A stretch of 64,000 nt of DNA. Origin: Pirellulales bacterium (GTDB lineage: Bacteria > Planctomycetota > Planctomycetia > Pirellulales > JALHPA01). The notes under the pieces were generated by a model, which worked only from the letters and a program-made list of their open reading frames with translations, had not been told where the DNA came from and did not search any database. The stretch covers positions 1-64,000 of the forward strand of contig JANRLT010000025.1 of the NCBI GenBank assembly GCA_033762255.1, written 5' to 3'. Both the position numbers and the translations under genes were made by a program. This document shows, piece by piece, positions 40,891 to 55,198 of the stretch. Position 1 is the first letter of the stretch, and each line of letters starts with the position of its first letter.

Positions 40891-41049
40891 TTACAAGCAC
40901 CAGTCCCCGCGCGCACAATTCCACTCCCGCGCCAACAGTGTCAGCTCTTCCCTGCTGGCTGGGCGTTGGTTTTCCTCCGCGCGGCCCACCGGCACGGGCG
41001 GGCCTAACTCCACCACCTGCGGCGCGGCGTAGGGGTTTTCGGGGGGCAT
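40891..41049 (-). pseudogene. truncated NPYxxP family member (52 codons)
   Basis: A short frame starting MPPENPYAAPQVVELGPP, with the same first 11 residues as the array genes upstream. It continues for about 40 polar residues and stops at TAA (40891-40893) before any membrane helix. At the DNA level its first 33 bases are almost identical to those of the genes starting at 41988, 44451 and 45381. It is best read as a remnant or as a copied 5' end, the distal one in the array. Confidence 0.6.
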
Positions 41050-41112
41050 GGGGAATCCGAATGGGAAAGGCGAAATTGAGAATTAGGAATCAGGGACAAC
41101 CAACATACAAAG

Positions 41113-41131
41113 CCGCCGATGGCATCGGCGG
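41113..41131 (-). repeat. hairpin repeat CCGCCGAT-GGC-ATCGGCGG
   Basis: A perfect 8-bp stem with a 3-base loop, preceded by ACAAAG as in the copy at 26461-26479. Compared with that copy an A-T stem pair has become C-G on both sides, so the stem is preserved. Confidence 0.75.
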
Positions 41132-41202
41132 ACGCCGTCGGGGAGTTGGCGGCATAACGGTAAAAAATTCCGCAATCAATTTGTCACTCAACGATTCAAC
41201 GC

Positions 41203-41988
41203 TTACTGCAAATTTTGCAAAAATGTCAGATTCACCGGCGGCGGTTGAACTTGCAGCATTTTCTGTATCCGGTCTTGCAGCATGTAAACGCATGATATTC
41301 TTAGAAAGAAATGGAGCGGGATCAAAATGAAGAGCATCACTAAACCGGCGTCAAAAATCCTTTCAATATATGCCTCAAAAAGATGATCTACATTTATAAA
41401 TATAGGAAATGCTAAGAGCATGGCCAGCAACGTGGCGGATAGGCCATACCTGGCCAACTGGATGCAAAGTTTGGCATTTTGGCACCGCAGGTGATCCGCA
41501 ACCCGCGACCAATAGACCAGTTCGCAACCGTTGGCAATCAAATAGCTGGCAATCAGCACGATGAACCAGAGAAGGAAATTCTGGCCGTGACTGTTTATTC
41601 GGGGTAATACGACTATCCCAGCGGCAAACCAAACAACCGGGCGCAGCAGAGTGGCAATGCCCAGCAGGCCCGCGCTGGAAAAATGCCGCGATCCCGCCCG
41701 GCACTGCCACCAGCCAGAAATCTGTAGAATCACCGGAGCAAACACCAATATCCCAATGCTAATGCCCCCCAGCCACTTAGCCCAAGCAGAAAAAATTACC
41801 GTGATAGGTAAGATCAACACTGGAATCAGTAAAACACTAGACATTCCCCACAGGCATAATTCGCACCCACGGGCCAGCTTCGCTAGTAACGGCCGCTCCT
41901 CCGGCGTCAAATCCCCCAGCGTCGCTACCCGCATGGGCGACTTCGTTTCCACAACCTGCGGCGCGGCGTAGGGATTTTCGGGGGGCAT
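41203..41988 (-). CDS. NPYxxP-array membrane protein 1
   Basis: A protein of about 261 residues starting MPPENPYAAPQ, then about 30 polar residues and six or so membrane helices. The shared motif appears as CELVYWSRVADHL in the second half. The soluble tail is short. The start at 41988 fits the family; upstream codons to 42027 do not. It is the last full member of a minus-strand array of seven related genes. No named domain is recognised. The order of genes and similar lengths (about 245-290 residues) suggest tandem duplication followed by strong divergence. Confidence 0.72.
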   Translation of the reverse strand: MPPENPYAAPQVVETKSPMRVATLGDLTPEERPLLAKLARGCELCLWGMSSVLLIPVLILPITVIFSAWAKWLGGISIGILVFAPVILQISGWWQCRAGSRHFSSAGLLGIATLLRPVVWFAAGIVVLPRINSHGQNFLLWFIVLIASYLIANGCELVYWSRVADHLRCQNAKLCIQLARYGLSATLLAMLLAFPIFINVDHLFEAYIERIFDAGLVMLFILIPLHFFLRISCVYMLQDRIQKMLQVQPPPVNLTFLQNLQ

Positions 41989-42044
41989 GGAAAAACCGAT
42001 AAGTTGAAATTTTGTTGAAACTACCAACGCATGATGTTTCCAAT

Positions 42045-42851
42045 CTACTGGTTGACGTTGCAGGTTGAGTGATCGGTTGGTGGCAATCCGTTAAGAATTT
42101 TCCACACTCCCGATTTGAGCCATAAACCTGCGACCAGCAGAAACAAAAAGGCAATGATATTACCAAATAGAAAAATTCCAAAGAGCGTTCTGAAGACATT
42201 GGTAATTGCAACCATAGGCGCATACAAGTTGCAAATTTCACAGCCCACAAATATCAGGCTTATCCCCAGCGAAATCCAGAACCAAATGGTCAAGTAAAAC
42301 AGAACCAGTCCCGATTCTCTTTGTCGCAAGGTCCGCGCTACTTGGTAATAAAAGCGAGTTTCCAGCAGATAGCTATAGACAAACACGACATAAGCCAAGA
42401 GTGCAAAAAGGTTAAAAGTGATGATTCCATTTCGCCTTAAATAATTATCCAGTATTATAACGCCCAGGCATGGAATAAATGAAAATGTTATGCACGCAAA
42501 CATGATGCCATAGACGTTTCTCAAATACGAAAATAACCGACCAAAGGGAACGTACATGAGCAATCCCACTCCACGCGGCAATTGTGTTGCAATTAAATGC
42601 ACTAGTGGGGCATAATCTTCTGCTCTGCGTGGACGTAAGATCAGAGAGATTGCATATTCAAATATGCCCCAGATCAAAAGACAAGGGATGCTTAGAAAAC
42701 AGAAAAATAATCCCCACGACAACAGTTTGAGCGATTCTGCGACTTCCGGTGTCATTACTAACTCTTTTGGCGCCTCGTCACTCAGCGAGACTGGCGATAG
42801 TTCCTCCAATGAAACTACCCGCGGCGATTCGTAAGGGTTATCGGGGGGCAT
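42045..42851 (-). CDS. NPYxxP-array membrane protein 2
   Basis: A 268-residue protein starting MPPDNPYESPR. After a polar acidic stretch to about residue 35 come hydrophobic segments (LLSWGLFFCFLSIPCLLIWG and others). It shares LPRGVGLLMYVPFG near residue 90 and the Glu-aromatic motif LETRFYYQVARTL (Glu164) with its neighbours. The gap to member 1 is 56 bp and to member 3 is 38 bp. Probably an inner membrane protein; no enzymatic motif is visible. Confidence 0.74.
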   Translation of the reverse strand: MPPDNPYESPRVVSLEELSPVSLSDEAPKELVMTPEVAESLKLLSWGLFFCFLSIPCLLIWGIFEYAISLILRPRRAEDYAPLVHLIATQLPRGVGLLMYVPFGRLFSYLRNVYGIMFACITFSFIPCLGVIILDNYLRRNGIITFNLFALLAYVVFVYSYLLETRFYYQVARTLRQRESGLVLFYLTIWFWISLGISLIFVGCEICNLYAPMVAITNVFRTLFGIFLFGNIIAFLFLLVAGLWLKSGVWKILNGLPPTDHSTCNVNQ

Positions 42852-42889
42852 TGTGTCAGTTCCAGCTATGAATAATGCGCCGGGTCAAA

Positions 42890-43678
42890 TCAATTCGGTT
42901 GGGCATCCACTTTTGCCCGGACGCCTTGACCCCGGAAATAGCCCAAGCGACTCTGTAACAAACATAACGTGACAAGCATGGCCAGCGAGCGTCCCGACCA
43001 GGCCAGCAACAAAGACAACTCTTGCTGGCGGTAGCTATCACCACGAAAGGAAAGTCCGCATCCTCCCATCACCAAAGGATGTTGATAAAGCTCAACAAAC
43101 ATAGTCCAGAGCGGGTAAATACTAGCGATCAGGGCCAACAGCGAACTGAATTCCGCTGTGGCATAACGCAACGATAAGCAAATTCGCCAAAAAAACCAAC
43201 TCTCGACGAACAAGGAAATCAGCAATAACAGAATTGGTATATGATAATAGGTTTTATAGAGCGTGATCACTTGATCCTGCATCTCCGTCAGTCCGGTAGA
43301 CATTACCACCAACCATATAACAATCAGAAACTGCGCGAACCACAGCAACCAAGCATAACCATGCAAGCTGGCCCAACGCAGGCAAAATGCCAAGCCAACT
43401 AGCCGGGAAAGCTGGAAGGTGTATAAGCTAGTTGCCCGCAAGTCGCCCCAGAATTCCCCTGAGAAAGGAAATCGCCGCGACTGCCAGAATTGGTTGAGCA
43501 AAATAATCGTTAGTAACAGCAGGCAACAATAAACCCCGCCCAACAGCCACATACCCCCTTGGGCGTGCCGCAAAATGGCTTTTTTCTGGTGAGAAAGCGT
43601 GGAATTGGCGGCTGCCGGTTCCTGGGCCTGGGTCGGCGAAATCACGGGAGGCGGGGTTGGGGTGGTGTATTCGCTCAT
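42890..43678 (-). CDS. array membrane protein 3, without the NPYxxP start
   Basis: A 262-residue protein that belongs by helix pattern and by the motif VESWFFWRICLSL, but starts MSEYTTPTPPPVISPTQ instead of MPPENPY. It also has LSRLVGLAFCLRWASL, matching the PRxVGL region of others. Its start overlaps the stop of member 4 (ATGA), so the pair is translationally coupled. It may have lost the N-terminal peptide or may never have gained it, which makes it useful for testing what the peptide does. Confidence 0.7.
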   Translation of the reverse strand: MSEYTTPTPPPVISPTQAQEPAAANSTLSHQKKAILRHAQGGMWLLGGVYCCLLLLTIILLNQFWQSRRFPFSGEFWGDLRATSLYTFQLSRLVGLAFCLRWASLHGYAWLLWFAQFLIVIWLVVMSTGLTEMQDQVITLYKTYYHIPILLLLISLFVESWFFWRICLSLRYATAEFSSLLALIASIYPLWTMFVELYQHPLVMGGCGLSFRGDSYRQQELSLLLAWSGRSLAMLVTLCLLQSRLGYFRGQGVRAKVDAQPN

Positions 43679-44451
43679 GGCTGGGACTGGTTATCGCGAG
43701 CTTGAATCATAAGCCGATACAGTTGACGATGAAGCTGCTGACCCAGGAGAGTCAGGCAAATGATGAAAATCCAGTACAAAAAGCCCAAAAACAAAACAAT
43801 CAGCATGTAGAAAATGGCGTCCTCAAGTCTATGTGATCTGTTTTTCAGGATGGGAGCGAACAATAAGCATCCAGTCAGCAAAAGTCCAAATACGAACAGG
43901 AGTGCGGAAAATTCTCGCAGTCCCGACTCTCGAGCGTGCTTGCCCGTGATTTTGAACAATTGCCCATAAACCCGCGATTCCATAAAATAAGAAACAATGA
44001 GGCAAATGAACCCTCCCATGAAGAGCAAATAACACCATTCGATTGCAATCCGGTTAAGAAGCGTCATCAATAAACTTATCGTAAAGCTGATTATCCCATA
44101 AATAGCCAAGAGCAAGCTGTGAGCAGTCCCCTGAATGCCAAAGCCGACACCAATAAGCACCATTTTTTTAACTCCGACGATTCTATGAATTTGGATGCCT
44201 AGAAAAATGACCAGGAGCATACTGCTGCGTACTTCCCATTTAAATGCCAAATACGAGAGCCCAGCCCATAACAATGCCGGGTACAGGACAATGCAAATCA
44301 AGCTAAACTGGCAAAATCTCATGCCTACTATCAAACCGGGCAATGCGTTAAGCTGCCGTGCGGCCAATTGCGACGTCTCCGGCTGTTTGCCCACGCGCGA
44401 TTCGGCACACGTTACTGTTTGCGGCGCGGCGTAGGGGTTTTCGGGGAGCAT
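43675..44451 (-). CDS. NPYxxP-array membrane protein 4
   Basis: A 258-residue protein starting MLPENPYAAPQTV. Membrane helices begin near residue 45, and IHRIVGVKKMVLIGVG and the motif MESRVYGQLFKIT (after LIVSYF) align with the other members. The tail ends with a basic amphipathic stretch LGQQLHRQLYRLMIQARD. Its stop overlaps the start of member 3. The first 33 coding bases are nearly identical to those of member 5 and the remnant at 40891-41049. Confidence 0.74.
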   Translation of the reverse strand: MLPENPYAAPQTVTCAESRVGKQPETSQLAARQLNALPGLIVGMRFCQFSLICIVLYPALLWAGLSYLAFKWEVRSSMLLVIFLGIQIHRIVGVKKMVLIGVGFGIQGTAHSLLLAIYGIISFTISLLMTLLNRIAIEWCYLLFMGGFICLIVSYFMESRVYGQLFKITGKHARESGLREFSALLFVFGLLLTGCLLFAPILKNRSHRLEDAIFYMLIVLFLGFLYWIFIICLTLLGQQLHRQLYRLMIQARDNQSQP

Positions 44452-44526
44452 GGTAGCCTCTGCTTCCTAGGTTCGTTCGGGGCGACCGGCCCAAATTATC
44501 TATACTGACTTATACGTCAGTCGGCG

Positions 44527-45381
44527 TTAAATTTTGATGCAGGGTAAAGATTCATCGTCCGCCCTCTCCGCTTGCGGCAGCACTTGGTCGGTTTGCGTTT
44601 CGAGTTGCTCGTGCCGCAAAAAATCCATGCTCTTTGCGGAAGGTCGCGGGGGGAGTAACAATGTTTTAATCCGCGCCTGGAGTGTGAGCATCACCATGAG
44701 GAAGAGGCCATAACAAAGGAATGCCGCTAACATCAACAGATAACTTAAGAGTATCTCCCGGTTGTGAACTAGCTGCGATATTATTGGCAAAAACCCTTCG
44801 TTGCTAATCAACCGCAACAAGACCACCAACCCCATCACCGCCAACGTATATTGCAGACTGTGGGCGTTACCCCCGGCCGACCGAGAGCCTACACTCACGG
44901 CTATCCGCGACCATACTCCCATCTCCAGGACAATCCCGACGATTGCCACAAACAGAATTCCATAGACTATTCTGATCAACTCAACCGATGTCCAAAGTGA
45001 CAGATTAAGACAGCCGAGGAATGACAAGCCCAAGAGTGTCACGCTTTTGAACAGTAATGCCGCACCGAGCAGTTGCTGGCATTGACGGCTTGACACTCCA
45101 CGACAGCAAGCGATGAGCCCCATGACCAGCATTATTTGCAACAAGACCACCACCACCAACAGTCCCGTCACGCCCAAGAGTGGAAGGGTTTTCATGATCA
45201 TTCGCGTGCATAAGACTGCCAGGGGAAATAAGAGAAAAATGGTTGTGCTGGCCATGTACAATTGCAATCCCTCACTCAGACTTTGGAGAGTGTGCCGTTG
45301 GTCATGAGTCATTGACAGCTGCATGTCCGGCTGTTGCTGCTGGACTGTCTGCGGCGCGGCGTAGGGGTTTTCGGGGAGCAT
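44527..45381 (-). CDS. NPYxxP-array membrane protein 5
   Basis: A 284-residue protein starting MLPENPYAAPQTVQQQQ. Helices run from about residue 40 to 245, with the motif LEMGVWSRIAVSV in the middle. A polar C-terminal tail of about 35 residues (KSMDFLRHEQLETQTDQ) is longer than in other members. The start at 45381 is chosen over upstream in-frame codons because the MLPENPY start recurs in the array. A CTGCATTCAGCATTCAT-type repeat precedes the start. Confidence 0.74.
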   Translation of the reverse strand: MLPENPYAAPQTVQQQQPDMQLSMTHDQRHTLQSLSEGLQLYMASTTIFLLFPLAVLCTRMIMKTLPLLGVTGLLVVVVLLQIMLVMGLIACCRGVSSRQCQQLLGAALLFKSVTLLGLSFLGCLNLSLWTSVELIRIVYGILFVAIVGIVLEMGVWSRIAVSVGSRSAGGNAHSLQYTLAVMGLVVLLRLISNEGFLPIISQLVHNREILLSYLLMLAAFLCYGLFLMVMLTLQARIKTLLLPPRPSAKSMDFLRHEQLETQTDQVLPQAERADDESLPCIKI

Positions 45382-45478
45382 GGGCAGGAGAATTCTGAAA
45401 TATGAATGCTGAATGCAGAATAGGGGGTGGGGAGTAAAGCGTCGGTACTTCAACTGTTGTTTAGCCAAGCCGAATATA

Positions 45479-46267
45479 TTATTGCAAACTGGGGCCAGGA
45501 TTTGCTGGCATGCGCGCGGTAATTTCAACAAGCCGGGACCGTAAGCGAATTCCCGCAATGACCATTAATAATACCACAATCCAACCACCGATCAGCAACG
45601 CAAAAATGCAACCAAATAGGGCATCACCCCGGCGTTCTATCGGGTGCCGCATGACTTCGCTATAAAAAGAAAAGTAGCCTGCTACCGGCAGGCAAAGGGC
45701 GACCAGCACGCAAACACAAAGGATGACATAATAAAAACGAATCTCCGAATTCAGCTTGAGTTTGATTGCCATTCCGCGATAAAAGCGCAGTTCCAGAAAA
45801 TACGAATACACAAGGCATATTACGGCACACGCCAAATAGAGTCCAGCCATGCTATCACGTGTACCAATCATGCTTACCATTTGCAGCCAGGGGACCGAAA
45901 AACAAACAATCGCAAATAAGACAAGATAAACTTGTCTTGCGCACGAAAGCTGCTGGCTATATGAAAAGTAGTATGAAAGCCCCACACAGCGTGGGACTTG
46001 TACGCCAGCCATCAGGACAATATGTAAGCCACTGATGGAATCACCCCTGCGGAAAAAGAGCACAATTATTAAGACCAGCAAAAATGGCCACAGCAACATA
46101 CCAATCATGCTTCCCAGGCAAAGCTTCATTCCCGCAATAACCGGATAAAGCGAAGCTACTTGTGTCGGCGTTAGATCGAGTTGATTCAATGTCGCATCCC
46201 CGCTGATAGTACCCCGCTGCGGTTTATCCACAACCTGCGGCGATTGATAGGGATTCTCGGGGGGCAT
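45479..46267 (-). CDS. NPYxxP-array membrane protein 6
   Basis: A 262-residue protein starting MPPENPYQSPQVV. It is the closest to member 2: VPRCVGLSYYFSYSQQLSCA near residue 91 and YSYFLELRFYRGMAIKL with Glu159. Six or so helices are visible. The start overlaps the stop codon of member 7 by one base (TAATG), so they are likely translated together. Confidence 0.75.
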   Translation of the reverse strand: MPPENPYQSPQVVDKPQRGTISGDATLNQLDLTPTQVASLYPVIAGMKLCLGSMIGMLLWPFLLVLIIVLFFRRGDSISGLHIVLMAGVQVPRCVGLSYYFSYSQQLSCARQVYLVLFAIVCFSVPWLQMVSMIGTRDSMAGLYLACAVICLVYSYFLELRFYRGMAIKLKLNSEIRFYYVILCVCVLVALCLPVAGYFSFYSEVMRHPIERRGDALFGCIFALLIGGWIVVLLMVIAGIRLRSRLVEITARMPANPGPSLQ

Positions 46268-47001
46268 TATCTTAACTCTGTTAGTGGCTCGACTTCCGCC
46301 GCCAGACGCCGCGCGAGCTCATTGCGGATCGCGACGAGCAAGACAATTGAGCCGATACCGCAGAAGAAAGTTAGGATCGTCAGTGCTAGTAAAATTGCTA
46401 AACCCGCATAGACAACGAATATCGCGGCATTTTCCGCCGTGAACATGGCTCCAATAAAGAACAAAGCATAAAAAAATCCGCAAACACAGGCAAAATAAGA
46501 AAGCCGTTGCGTTGTGCGGGGCGTCAGCCGTATTGCCTCCCGCAACCAAAAGCAGAACTCGACCACGATAGACAATGCAAGGCACCCGCAACCCAGGATT
46601 GCCCATACAATCGAACGATAATATAAGCTCGCATAATCGTTGAACTCGACACCCTCAATTACAATTGCCCGGAAAACAGCGAGAAATACCATTAGTAGAA
46701 GCCCCAAACTGGCAAGCCGAGTAACGATCACCAGCCAGTTGAGGGAGTTGCGCCAAAGGCCATCATGCGCGGCATTCCATTCCCGTAGACCTTTGCAAAT
46801 GAGCACACAATTGACCGCCCAACCAACCGGAAAAAGCGGATATAGCACCAGTGAACACCCCAGGATCATTAACGCAGCTAAGCAGACAGTGCTGCTTTGT
46901 CGCAGGCGGAAATCCAACAAGTCCCCGTCGGCGCTCAGGGGTGGCCGTTCCGCGGATAGCTGGAGCATCCGCGGCGATTCATAGGGGTTTATGGGGGGCA
47001 T
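46267..47001 (-). CDS. NPYxxP-array membrane protein 7 (first gene)
   Basis: A 244-residue protein starting MPPINPYESPRML. It has about 40 polar residues, then several membrane helices and the motif VEFCFWLREAIRL near residue 150. The soluble tail RNELARRLAAEVEPLTELR is charged. It is the most upstream gene of the array, so a promoter should lie in the 670 bp before it, which consist largely of hairpin repeats. Confidence 0.74.
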   Translation of the reverse strand: MPPINPYESPRMLQLSAERPPLSADGDLLDFRLRQSSTVCLAALMILGCSLVLYPLFPVGWAVNCVLICKGLREWNAAHDGLWRNSLNWLVIVTRLASLGLLLMVFLAVFRAIVIEGVEFNDYASLYYRSIVWAILGCGCLALSIVVEFCFWLREAIRLTPRTTQRLSYFACVCGFFYALFFIGAMFTAENAAIFVVYAGLAILLALTILTFFCGIGSIVLLVAIRNELARRLAAEVEPLTELR

Positions 47002-51677: not shown

Positions 51678-52148
51678 ATGCACGAGAATGAGAACCCGTA
51701 CGCCGCGCCGCAAATATTACAAACGGCTAGTGCGGGCTATATCCAGGGGGAAGAGTTGCATGAAATCGTGCCAGCCGGCCAATGGCCGCGGTTGATGAAC
51801 TTTATTATTGATCAATTCGCCATCCTGGGATTGAATTTCATTGTGGCTCTGCTGATTTTATTTGTGGGTGGGGAGGAATCACTGGATAAAACCCCCGATG
51901 CCTTGGTTGGCCTGCCGAGTTTTTTGAGTTATTACATCCTGATGGAAGCGACGACCCAGCGGACGATTGGCAAATTCTTGACCGGCACGATTGTCGTGAA
52001 TGAGCAAGGGGGGAAACCCAGCTTGGGGCAGATACTCGGCCGCTCCTTTGCCCGCTTGATCCCGTTTGAGGCGTTTTCGTTCTTAGGTACTCCCACACGC
52101 GGCTGGCATGACAAGCTGCCCAAGACGTATGTTATCAAAGTGCGGTAA
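51678..52148 (+). CDS. RDD family protein with NPYAAPQ N-terminus
   Basis: A 156-residue protein starting MHENENPYAAPQILQ, followed by an RDD domain: WPRLMNFIIDQFAILGLNFIVAL, then a second helix region and the motif QRTIGKFLTGTIVVNEQGGKPS. It shares the NPYAAPQ peptide with the seven-gene array although the membrane domain is of a different family. A GGGGAA ribosome binding site precedes the start. Confidence 0.82.
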   Translation: MHENENPYAAPQILQTASAGYIQGEELHEIVPAGQWPRLMNFIIDQFAILGLNFIVALLILFVGGEESLDKTPDALVGLPSFLSYYILMEATTQRTIGKFLTGTIVVNEQGGKPSLGQILGRSFARLIPFEAFSFLGTPTRGWHDKLPKTYVIKVR

Positions 52149-53146: not shown

Positions 53147-55198
53147 CTAGGCCATCCGCCGACGTAACCCGATCAGTCCCGCCGCGCCGGCAAAGGCCAA
53201 TAGCATCCAGGTCCCCGGCTCCGGCACGGCGGAAATCCGCCCGCCAGAGAACCGCTGTTGAATGGCGTATTCCGGCTTAAATGTCGAGACATCAAAGCTG
53301 GCGTTCCCATTGGCCATGAATTCTATGTAGTCCTGCAGGGCGTTTTGATCGGTCACGCCCAGCGAGGTAAAGCCATAGAGTTGGGACATGTAGGTATTCA
53401 ATCCGCCGATGGAGGTGCGGAAGTATTGGTCGCCGCCGCCAGCGCTAAAGTTGAGCGTGGCCATATCCACGGTGGTGGCAAGGGGGTCCACCAGCCACAT
53501 GCCGTTTTGGAGCACGGGGATTCCACCAATTTCAATCTCCAGCACGCGCTGCGCGGGGGTGGTGACCACGCCAGCGCTATTAAACGCAAAGCCCGGCTTG
53601 GTAATGTCGTACACCACTTCCATCCCGGCCAGGTGGGCAAACCGTCCATCCGCGCCGACGGGGTCGATCCCGGGATTCGGTCCATCGGTCGTGCGCGAGT
53701 AGGCGTTTTCCAAAAGCAACTTTAGATCGGCCAGCTTGACGTCCTCCACCACCGACACAAAGTTGCCAAAGGGAGAAACGCTAAAGGTATTCAGTTGGGT
53801 GACATCTCCCGCGGCAATATTCGCCCGGATGCCGCCACCGTTGACGATGGCAATCGCAGGTAGATCCACGCCAAAGTCCACCGCTCGTTGTTGCGCGGCG
53901 CGCAGCAGGCCGTCCGCCACCACGTTCCCCAGATTGGTCTCGCGCGAGCGAATCGTGGGCGATCCACCATGCAACAGTTGAACGCTGGTATTGGCCAAGT
54001 CATTGGCCGCCAGACCCGCGACAAAGTTTTGCACGGGAGTTACCACTTCAGCCTGGACCAGCGGATCGGCGGCGACGCCATGGGTGGCGTCGACCACGGT
54101 ACTGGCGACACGTTGCGGGCCAGAGGAATTATCAATCCCGGTCAGGTTGCCGCTATTATCAAAATTGAGCGTCACCCGGCCCAAGTAGCCGTAATTACCG
54201 CCGGTGGTAACCAAGGGGATATTATTTCCGCCTAAATCCGTCACCGTGCTGGTGAGGGGGTAATTATTTGGGACGCCGGTCAAACTGCCGGATAACGTCA
54301 CCGGAGAATCCCCGGGAATCAGACCTGTATCCACAATGCTAGCCGGAGCACTAGGCGTATAAGCGACCTTAGGCGAGATGGCGGTGGGATTTCGCAAAAT
54401 TTCGTCCCCGCCGCCGGCAATGATGAGGTCAATGCCTGGGTTCAGGCTAGCCACCAGTGTGTTGTCCGTGCTGATCCCCTGCAGGTGCCCGGCGAGAATA
54501 ATGTGATCGGCGCCCGCCATTTGTAAATTTGCAATTTGAGTATTGACCGCGGCGGCGACCGGATTGACCACCACAGCGCCCGGCGAGGAAACAAAGCTAA
54601 GCGTCTCGGTCGTGGCCCCAATGATGCCTATCTTTTTTATCCCCGCGGCGGTCGTCACATTGAGCATCTTGGTCGGGGCAATCGTCCCGGCCGTCACCAA
54701 GGATTGTAATCCGGCTTCCGCCGCAAAATTGAGGTTGGAGCTTAGGTAGGTCGTGGCATTAGTCGTTTGGGCGTCGCCAATAAATTCGGCCAACACATCC
54801 GGGCCAAAGTCAAATTCGTGATTACCCAAAATCGAGGCGTCATAGCCCATGCGGCTAATCGCCAGGGCGTCATAAAAAGTCCGGCTGCCGGGCGCGCCGC
54901 TGTCCAGACTGGCCTGAAACTGCGGCCCGGCCAGGAAGGTATCCCCCGCATAGATCGACACAACGCCATGATTGAGCGACTGATAATAAGCGCGGGTCTG
55001 ATCAAGCTGGGTTTTAAAGCGGGCCGCTCCGCCGTACTGCGACAAGCTATCGGTATAGCTAATGAGGCGGGATTCGCCGTCATTATTATGCAGCACCGTC
55101 ACCGAATATTGGGCGTAAGCGGTCGACATGCTATCGGCCGCGCAAAATAAACCAATAGCCAGGGCGGCCAAAGAAAAACGTCCAAGATTCTGTGGCAT
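53147..55198 (-). CDS. 5'-nucleotidase/metallophosphatase with PEP-CTERM anchor
   Basis: A 683-residue exported protein. A signal peptide (residues 1-30) precedes a calcineurin-like phosphoesterase domain with VTVLHNNDGES, YAGDTF, ILGNHEFDFG and LAGHLQG metal-site motifs. A 5'-nucleotidase C-terminal domain follows (ETNLGNVVADGLLRAA, VNGGGIRANIAAGDVT, FSVSPFGNFVSVVE). The C-terminus is a PEP-CTERM sorting signal: AVPEPGTWMLLAFAGAAGLIGLRRR. The protein probably hydrolyses nucleotides or other phosphate esters at the cell surface. An exosortase should process it but is not in the window. In the first motif the usual Asp-x-His is Asp-Gly-Glu. Confidence 0.9.
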   Translation of the reverse strand: MPQNLGRFSLAALAIGLFCAADSMSTAYAQYSVTVLHNNDGESRLISYTDSLSQYGGAARFKTQLDQTRAYYQSLNHGVVSIYAGDTFLAGPQFQASLDSGAPGSRTFYDALAISRMGYDASILGNHEFDFGPDVLAEFIGDAQTTNATTYLSSNLNFAAEAGLQSLVTAGTIAPTKMLNVTTAAGIKKIGIIGATTETLSFVSSPGAVVVNPVAAAVNTQIANLQMAGADHIILAGHLQGISTDNTLVASLNPGIDLIIAGGGDEILRNPTAISPKVAYTPSAPASIVDTGLIPGDSPVTLSGSLTGVPNNYPLTSTVTDLGGNNIPLVTTGGNYGYLGRVTLNFDNSGNLTGIDNSSGPQRVASTVVDATHGVAADPLVQAEVVTPVQNFVAGLAANDLANTSVQLLHGGSPTIRSRETNLGNVVADGLLRAAQQRAVDFGVDLPAIAIVNGGGIRANIAAGDVTQLNTFSVSPFGNFVSVVEDVKLADLKLLLENAYSRTTDGPNPGIDPVGADGRFAHLAGMEVVYDITKPGFAFNSAGVVTTPAQRVLEIEIGGIPVLQNGMWLVDPLATTVDMATLNFSAGGGDQYFRTSIGGLNTYMSQLYGFTSLGVTDQNALQDYIEFMANGNASFDVSTFKPEYAIQQRFSGGRISAVPEPGTWMLLAFAGAAGLIGLRRRMA

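Follow-up and report, generated by a model that had tools for sequence, protein, structure and literature searches.

The DNA analysed here, hereafter the window, is a stretch of 64,000 nucleotides covering positions 1 to 64,000 of contig JANRLT010000025.1 of a Pirellulales bacterium (assembly GCA_033762255.1). Its minus strand carries an array of seven consecutive genes for small membrane proteins (g1 to g7) and a truncated further copy (g0), and most of them begin with the motif NPYxxP a few residues after the start methionine. The same motif precedes the membrane helices of many unrelated integral membrane proteins of the order, and it is treated here as an N-terminal tag in its own right. 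The genes and tags of the array are:

46267..47001, minus strand: g7, 244 amino acids, about 6 helices, start MPPINPYESPR; core without detectable kinship to the other array genes
46973..46989, minus strand: NPYxxP tag of g7
45479..46267, minus strand: g6, 262 amino acids, six-helix orphan membrane protein, start MPPENPYQSPQ; the most central paralogue
46239..46255, minus strand: NPYxxP tag of g6
44527..45381, minus strand: g5, 284 amino acids counted from an ATG (an upstream TTG in the list of open reading frames), start MLPENPYAAPQ; probable paralogue
45353..45369, minus strand: NPYxxP tag of g5, codons CCC TAC GCC GCG
43675..44451, minus strand: g4, 258 amino acids, start MLPENPYAAPQ; clear paralogue
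44423..44439, minus strand: NPYxxP tag of g4, codons CCC TAC GCC GCG
42890..43678, minus strand: g3, 262 amino acids, without NPYxxP, start MSEYTTPTPPP; probable paralogue (Z-score 4.5 with g6)
42045..42851, minus strand: g2, 268 amino acids, start MPPDNPYESPR; clear paralogue
42823..42839, minus strand: NPYxxP tag of g2
41203..41988, minus strand: g1, 261 amino acids, start MPPENPYAAPQ; clear paralogue
41960..41976, minus strand: NPYxxP tag of g1, codons CCC TAC GCC GCG
40891..41049, minus strand: g0, truncated copy of 52 amino acids, with the tag and about 40 residues before a stop; no helix
41021..41037, minus strand: NPYxxP tag of g0, codons CCC TAC GCC GCG

The seven intact open reading frames (ORFs) encode proteins of 244-284 amino acids with 5-6 helices each, as predicted from hydropathy, and look coding by codon-position GC. 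The genes g7 and g6 overlap by 1 base (TAATG) and g4 and g3 by 4 bases (ATGA), while the remaining intergenic gaps are 38-153 bases long. In these respects the locus is as described in the original prediction, which was made from the letters of the DNA alone. The start that it gave for the seven genes, 40891, has to be corrected, as the intact array spans 41203-47001 and 40891-41049 is the truncated eighth copy g0, the start of which matches the array profile with E 5.8e-4 in a profile search. It had also described most of the proteins as starting with MPPENPYxxPQ and all seven as divergent paralogues. NPYxxP is indeed present in six of the seven intact genes, g3 being the exception, but such a start is not specific to array genes (see below), and the paralogy holds for at least four and probably six of them.

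The extent of the family was judged from the cores alone, with the first 30 residues removed and Smith-Waterman scores expressed as Z-scores relative to window-shuffled sequences. The highest values were obtained for g2-g6 (16.0) and g4-g6 (12.1), followed by g2-g4 and g1-g6 (5.7 each), g3-g6 (4.5) and the pairs g1-g5 and g4-g5 (3.2 each); the core of g7 reached at best 1.0 with any other member. In leave-one-out profile searches g1, g2, g4 and g6 scored above all 300 shuffles, g5 was marginal and ranked under one unrelated protein, and g3, whose score was reached by 4 of 300 shuffles, failed, as did g7. Together the two measures indicate that at least four, and probably six, of the array genes are paralogues: the cores of g1, g2, g4 and g6 are clearly related by sequence, those of g3 and g5 probably belong to the same family, and g7, as far as core alignment can tell, is joined to the array by its tail and position only. 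A glutamate in the region of the fourth helix is invariant in the alignment, g7 included, and was not used since the sequences are few and divergent.

None of the array proteins matches a Pfam or NCBIfam family, in line with the earlier remark that no known family was recognised in them. The array profile finds this array alone in 39 relatives, and a search of 297 genomes of the order, which takes up a suggestion to look for tandem copies in planctomycetes, returned no full-length homologue and a single partial match (in genome G003, E 8.1e-4). The set searched included one other genome of the same family, 73% complete, and the array family may be wider than it appears. The AlphaFold model of g6 is all-helical and of moderate confidence (predicted local distance difference test score, pLDDT, 69; predicted template modelling score 0.65), and the Foldseek comparison that had been proposed as a check for a transporter or phage-defence fold gave no PDB or viral match for it (best E 0.23 and 0.56); a single-sequence model of g7 was poor (pLDDT 59) and was not used. 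Neither the Pfam and NCBIfam profiles nor the PDB and viral fold searches place the proteins in a known transporter, protease or defence family. These results go part of the way to establishing the array as a local tandem expansion, with fast divergence as originally proposed, of what appears to be a lineage-restricted family of orphan six-helix membrane proteins, most of them tagged.

The tag takes the form NPYx[SAP]P, situated 1-9 residues after the start methionine and upstream of the first membrane helix, usually 15-30 residues before it. Searched for as DNA over the whole genome from which the window comes, NPYxxP is at background level overall (53 sites, 60 in the reversed control); 27 of the 53 sites, however, are found 1-9 codons after an ATG that opens an ORF of 30 codons or more, and helices follow the tag in almost all of the 27. 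The carriers include two MFS proteins, a POT peptide transporter, a nucleoside symporter (Nuc_H_symport), an RDD protein and many orphans. As the same tail is carried by MFS, POT, nucleoside-symporter, RDD, MatE and DUF805 proteins as well as by orphans, it cannot serve as the mark of one paralogous family, as had been assumed. The motif also occurs deeper in some proteins, such as an O-antigen-ligase-like protein (Wzy_C), where it is 21 residues in, and a protein whose N-terminal region is long and rich in proline; in a few proteins of the own genome it lies 60-145 residues in and still ahead of a helix. Two tagged ORFs, g0 and one of 34 amino acids elsewhere (L041 1728-1832), end before any helix and are apparently truncated genes. 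A second tagged cluster, on contig C49 (L039 2696-4050), consists of three small membrane-protein genes side by side, identical in the DNA of their tags and unrelated in their cores. The window itself holds one further tagged gene, starting with NPYAAPQ and with tag DNA nearly identical to that of the array:

51678..52148, plus strand: RDD-family membrane protein with the same tag (MHENENPYAAPQ), unrelated to the array

The tag is widespread in the order. In 40 genomes the pattern M-x-x-NPYx[ASTP]P gave 107 matches as compared to 1 for the reversed control, which rules out chance or composition as the origin of the motif; the matches are distributed over 20 of the 40 genomes, with up to 23 in one. 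When the first motif residue was left free, asparagine accounted for 69 of 143 matches, and the other 74 are close to the control level of 53. At least one helix is predicted in 69 of the 77 distinct tagged ORFs, the first helix starting at a median of residue 32, and beyond residue 18 the 69 helix-bearing proteins of the relatives fall into 66 mutually unrelated BLAST groups. Apart from the fixed positions D or E is favoured before the motif and E, Q, K or R as well as S or A within it, and the information drops after the last proline. The most obvious soluble exception (L252 1298-1552, in relative G023) is tagged without a membrane helix and has what by eye looks like a four-cysteine, ClpX-like zinc finger.

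That the tag is separable from the protein which it precedes is best seen with the conserved transporters. Most POT and nucleoside-symporter homologues of the order are without it, and in a few it stands before the conserved domain (among POT proteins in L318 of the window's own genome, in L341, and in L271 of a named Pirellula; among nucleoside symporters in L050 of the own genome, in L289 and in L315). POT structures in the PDB align to the tagged POT protein from about residue 18-20 onward, with one exception at 10; nearly all of them thus align only past the tag, and the tag is an extension. Two further POT homologues (L331 and L335, from relatives G024 and G007) start with MSDSPYDPPQ and MSDSPYTSPE, a SPYxxP variant of the tag. 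Outside the phylum, in-frame tagged membrane proteins were found, among the matches listed, in the beta- and gamma-proteobacteria Massilia, Duganella, Formosimonas, Pseudomonas, Pseudoxanthomonas and Rhodanobacter and also in Verrucomicrobiota, Myxococcota and Acidobacteriota, with one to a few tagged proteins per genome among those listed. The carriers in named genomes, planctomycetes included, are RDD, DUF805, MatE, MFS and POT proteins. Matches in Bacillota, Bacteroidota and archaea were out-of-frame, short or soluble and are read as chance or unrelated proteins. These data show NPYx[SAP]P to be a modular N-terminal tag that numerous unrelated integral membrane proteins carry in the order and, less often, in other phyla.

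The codons of the tag tell something of how it may be acquired. All nine N-terminal NPYAAP starts of the own genome use TAC GCC GCG; they are distributed over three contigs and precede mostly unrelated cores, some of the nine being array paralogues and hence not all independent. In the same genes the frequency of TAC is 0.30 and those of GCC and GCG are 0.35 and 0.36. The excess of synonymous identity within the motif was never reached in 1000 simulations for the own genome, and there was no excess just downstream. Similarly, relative G031 has an excess within the motif (0.609 as compared to 0.362 expected, 0/1000) and not after it. The excess is weak in G002; G021 and G005/G023 show none, even with the amino acids conserved, and where codons vary in this way an element at the mRNA level is unsupported. 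This suggests that 5' ends may have been copied recently between genes in some lineages, with selection at the protein level in general; a local codon preference in those lineages may be an alternative to copying. Gain and loss of tagged genes also appear rapid. The same-genus genomes G015 and G031 (L198-L217 and L386-L401) contain 19 and 22 tagged proteins and have three tagged orthologues in common, a comparison between two draft genomes that was confined to tagged orthologues. A set of some 20 small tagged membrane proteins in each genome, with three in common, suggests a fast turnover.

The reading that we favour, with about even confidence, is that the tag serves for docking or sorting on the cytosolic side and is recognised by a putative factor. 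In the three same-genus orthologue pairs the tag is identical at 18/18 positions, as compared to 40/51 in the linker and 126/163 in the core, which speaks for it. The N-termini of MFS and POT proteins are cytosolic, and in the array the charge distribution (lysine plus arginine 69 vs. 38 overall) favours a cytosolic N-terminus in six of the seven proteins; topology and charges together suggest that the tag faces the cytosol; the positive-inside count, when extended to all tagged proteins, gave no information. The tail would then act as a short linear motif for docking or sorting, to which a cytosolic or membrane-peripheral reader would bind in order to place, cluster or control the tagged proteins, and new or duplicated membrane proteins would join by acquiring the tag, sometimes by way of the copied 5' end of another gene. 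In a bolder version, put forward tentatively and held to be less likely than not, an undescribed bacterial system would use NPYxxP for recognition: a reader in the cytosol would recruit dozens of unrelated proteins of the inner membrane, and the tag would spread between genes as a small DNA cassette through which new orphan membrane proteins come under the system.

Several observations weigh against a docking or sorting motif. No reader was found, and the sole candidate tested, GYF_2 (PF14237), failed. Eukaryotic relatives of GYF_2 bind proline-rich peptides; the domain is nevertheless absent (E 0.001) from tagged Duganella, Massilia, Pseudomonas and acidobacterial genomes, its counts do not follow those of the tag, and the GYF_2 proteins examined lack NPYxxP. 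About half of the sampled relatives are without an M-x-x-NPY copy, other spacings not being counted. A sample of 118 genomes from across the phylum, in which the order is represented by few, gave 14 matches to M-x-NPY, including 4 from the window's own genome, vs. 3 in the control. The motif is thus close to background in the genomes sampled outside the order, and it is not a general bacterial need. Finally, the same-genus orthologue pairs with an identical tag are only three, picked for having the tag in both members, which biases the 18/18.

Four other explanations were weighed. First, the tag may help insertion, topology or early translation with no later docking role. A helix follows soon after it in almost every tagged ORF and it is placed at the very start of translation, as such an aid to biogenesis would have it; we nevertheless consider this unlikely, as the strict amino acids with free codons in G021 and G005/G023 leave no room for an mRNA-level element there, transporters orthologous to tagged ones are produced without it, and in the few own-genome proteins mentioned above the motif lies far from the start. 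Second, the tag may be a side effect of the birth of new genes: a cassette from the 5' end, made up of start and tag, would be copied before new ORFs and hitch-hike without function. The uniform TAC GCC GCG codons of the nine NPYAAP starts on three contigs, most of these genes being unrelated, the synonymous excess of G031 inside the motif and not after it, and the few tagged orthologues common to the two same-genus genomes all agree with copying. Lack of function is however rather improbable, as the tag is also found on old conserved transporters, recurs in other phyla and is kept in its amino acids in G021 and G005/G023 without any synonymous excess. Third, a short and probably unstructured cytosolic tail on membrane proteins could mark its carriers for degradation or quality control by a membrane AAA+ protease such as FtsH, and the tagged protein with a ClpX-like zinc finger and no helix could be counted in its favour; FtsH is near-universal in bacteria while the tag is patchy, direct support is lacking, and we hold this explanation to be improbable. 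Equally improbable is that the array is a variable membrane system for transport, sensing, immunity or phage defence in which the tag is incidental, for the tandem copies, strong divergence, truncated copy and absence of a homologue in the order stand beside the lack of any family or fold match and a neighbourhood of housekeeping or unrelated genes, the scanned part of which gave no recognisable toxin, transposon or defence gene, so that the role in transport, sensing or defence first suggested for these genes has gained no positive support.

The membranes of planctomycetes are unusual, and many of their membrane proteins lack annotation. If a cytosolic docking or sorting tag is indeed shared among them, it would group dozens of orphans per genome into one system, explain why unrelated genes resemble a family, and provide a direct handle on the placement or control of these proteins. 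No description of the NPYxxP motif was found in the open-access papers searched, whose silence is no proof of novelty.

Among known signals, the planctomycete surface signal PF07595 (RRLxxExLExRxLLA) is likewise N-terminal, rich in planctomycetes and joined to varied domains; it differs in sequence and is thought to export surface proteins (PMC8567305), and it had no match in the array or in any tagged protein scanned. Several RDD (PF06271) and DUF805 (PF05656) small membrane proteins are tagged, and the array proteins match neither profile. In eukaryotes the NPY motif of Sso2 is bound by Sec3 (PMC9427108), again a short Asn-Pro-Tyr near the N-terminus, on the cytosolic side of a membrane protein and with a peripheral partner. 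This is an analogy only; in the bacterial motif a further proline is conserved, and no homologous reader was found, none having been searched for. The nearest precedents are the PEP-CTERM/EpsH exosortase tag (PMC1569441), GlyGly-CTERM (PMC3237569) and MYXO-CTERM (PMC11980579). The tag cannot itself be PEP-CTERM, which is a C-terminal PEP motif followed by a helix and a basic cluster; in the window Pfam matches PEP-CTERM only in an unrelated gene, that of a 5'-nucleotidase-like protein with a C-terminal PEP-CTERM sorting tag (53147-55198, minus strand). Unlike tags of the PEP-CTERM type, NPYxxP is N-terminal, precedes the helix, is found on multi-helix proteins, has a predicted location on the cytosolic side and is without a known processing enzyme. 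Like them it is a short, near-invariant motif next to a membrane helix, occurs on unrelated proteins in many copies per genome and is patchily distributed. The members of PEP-CTERM were likewise first catalogued in a planctomycete among paralogous families (PMC1569441), and the PEP-CTERM and MYXO-CTERM tags each led to dedicated machinery.

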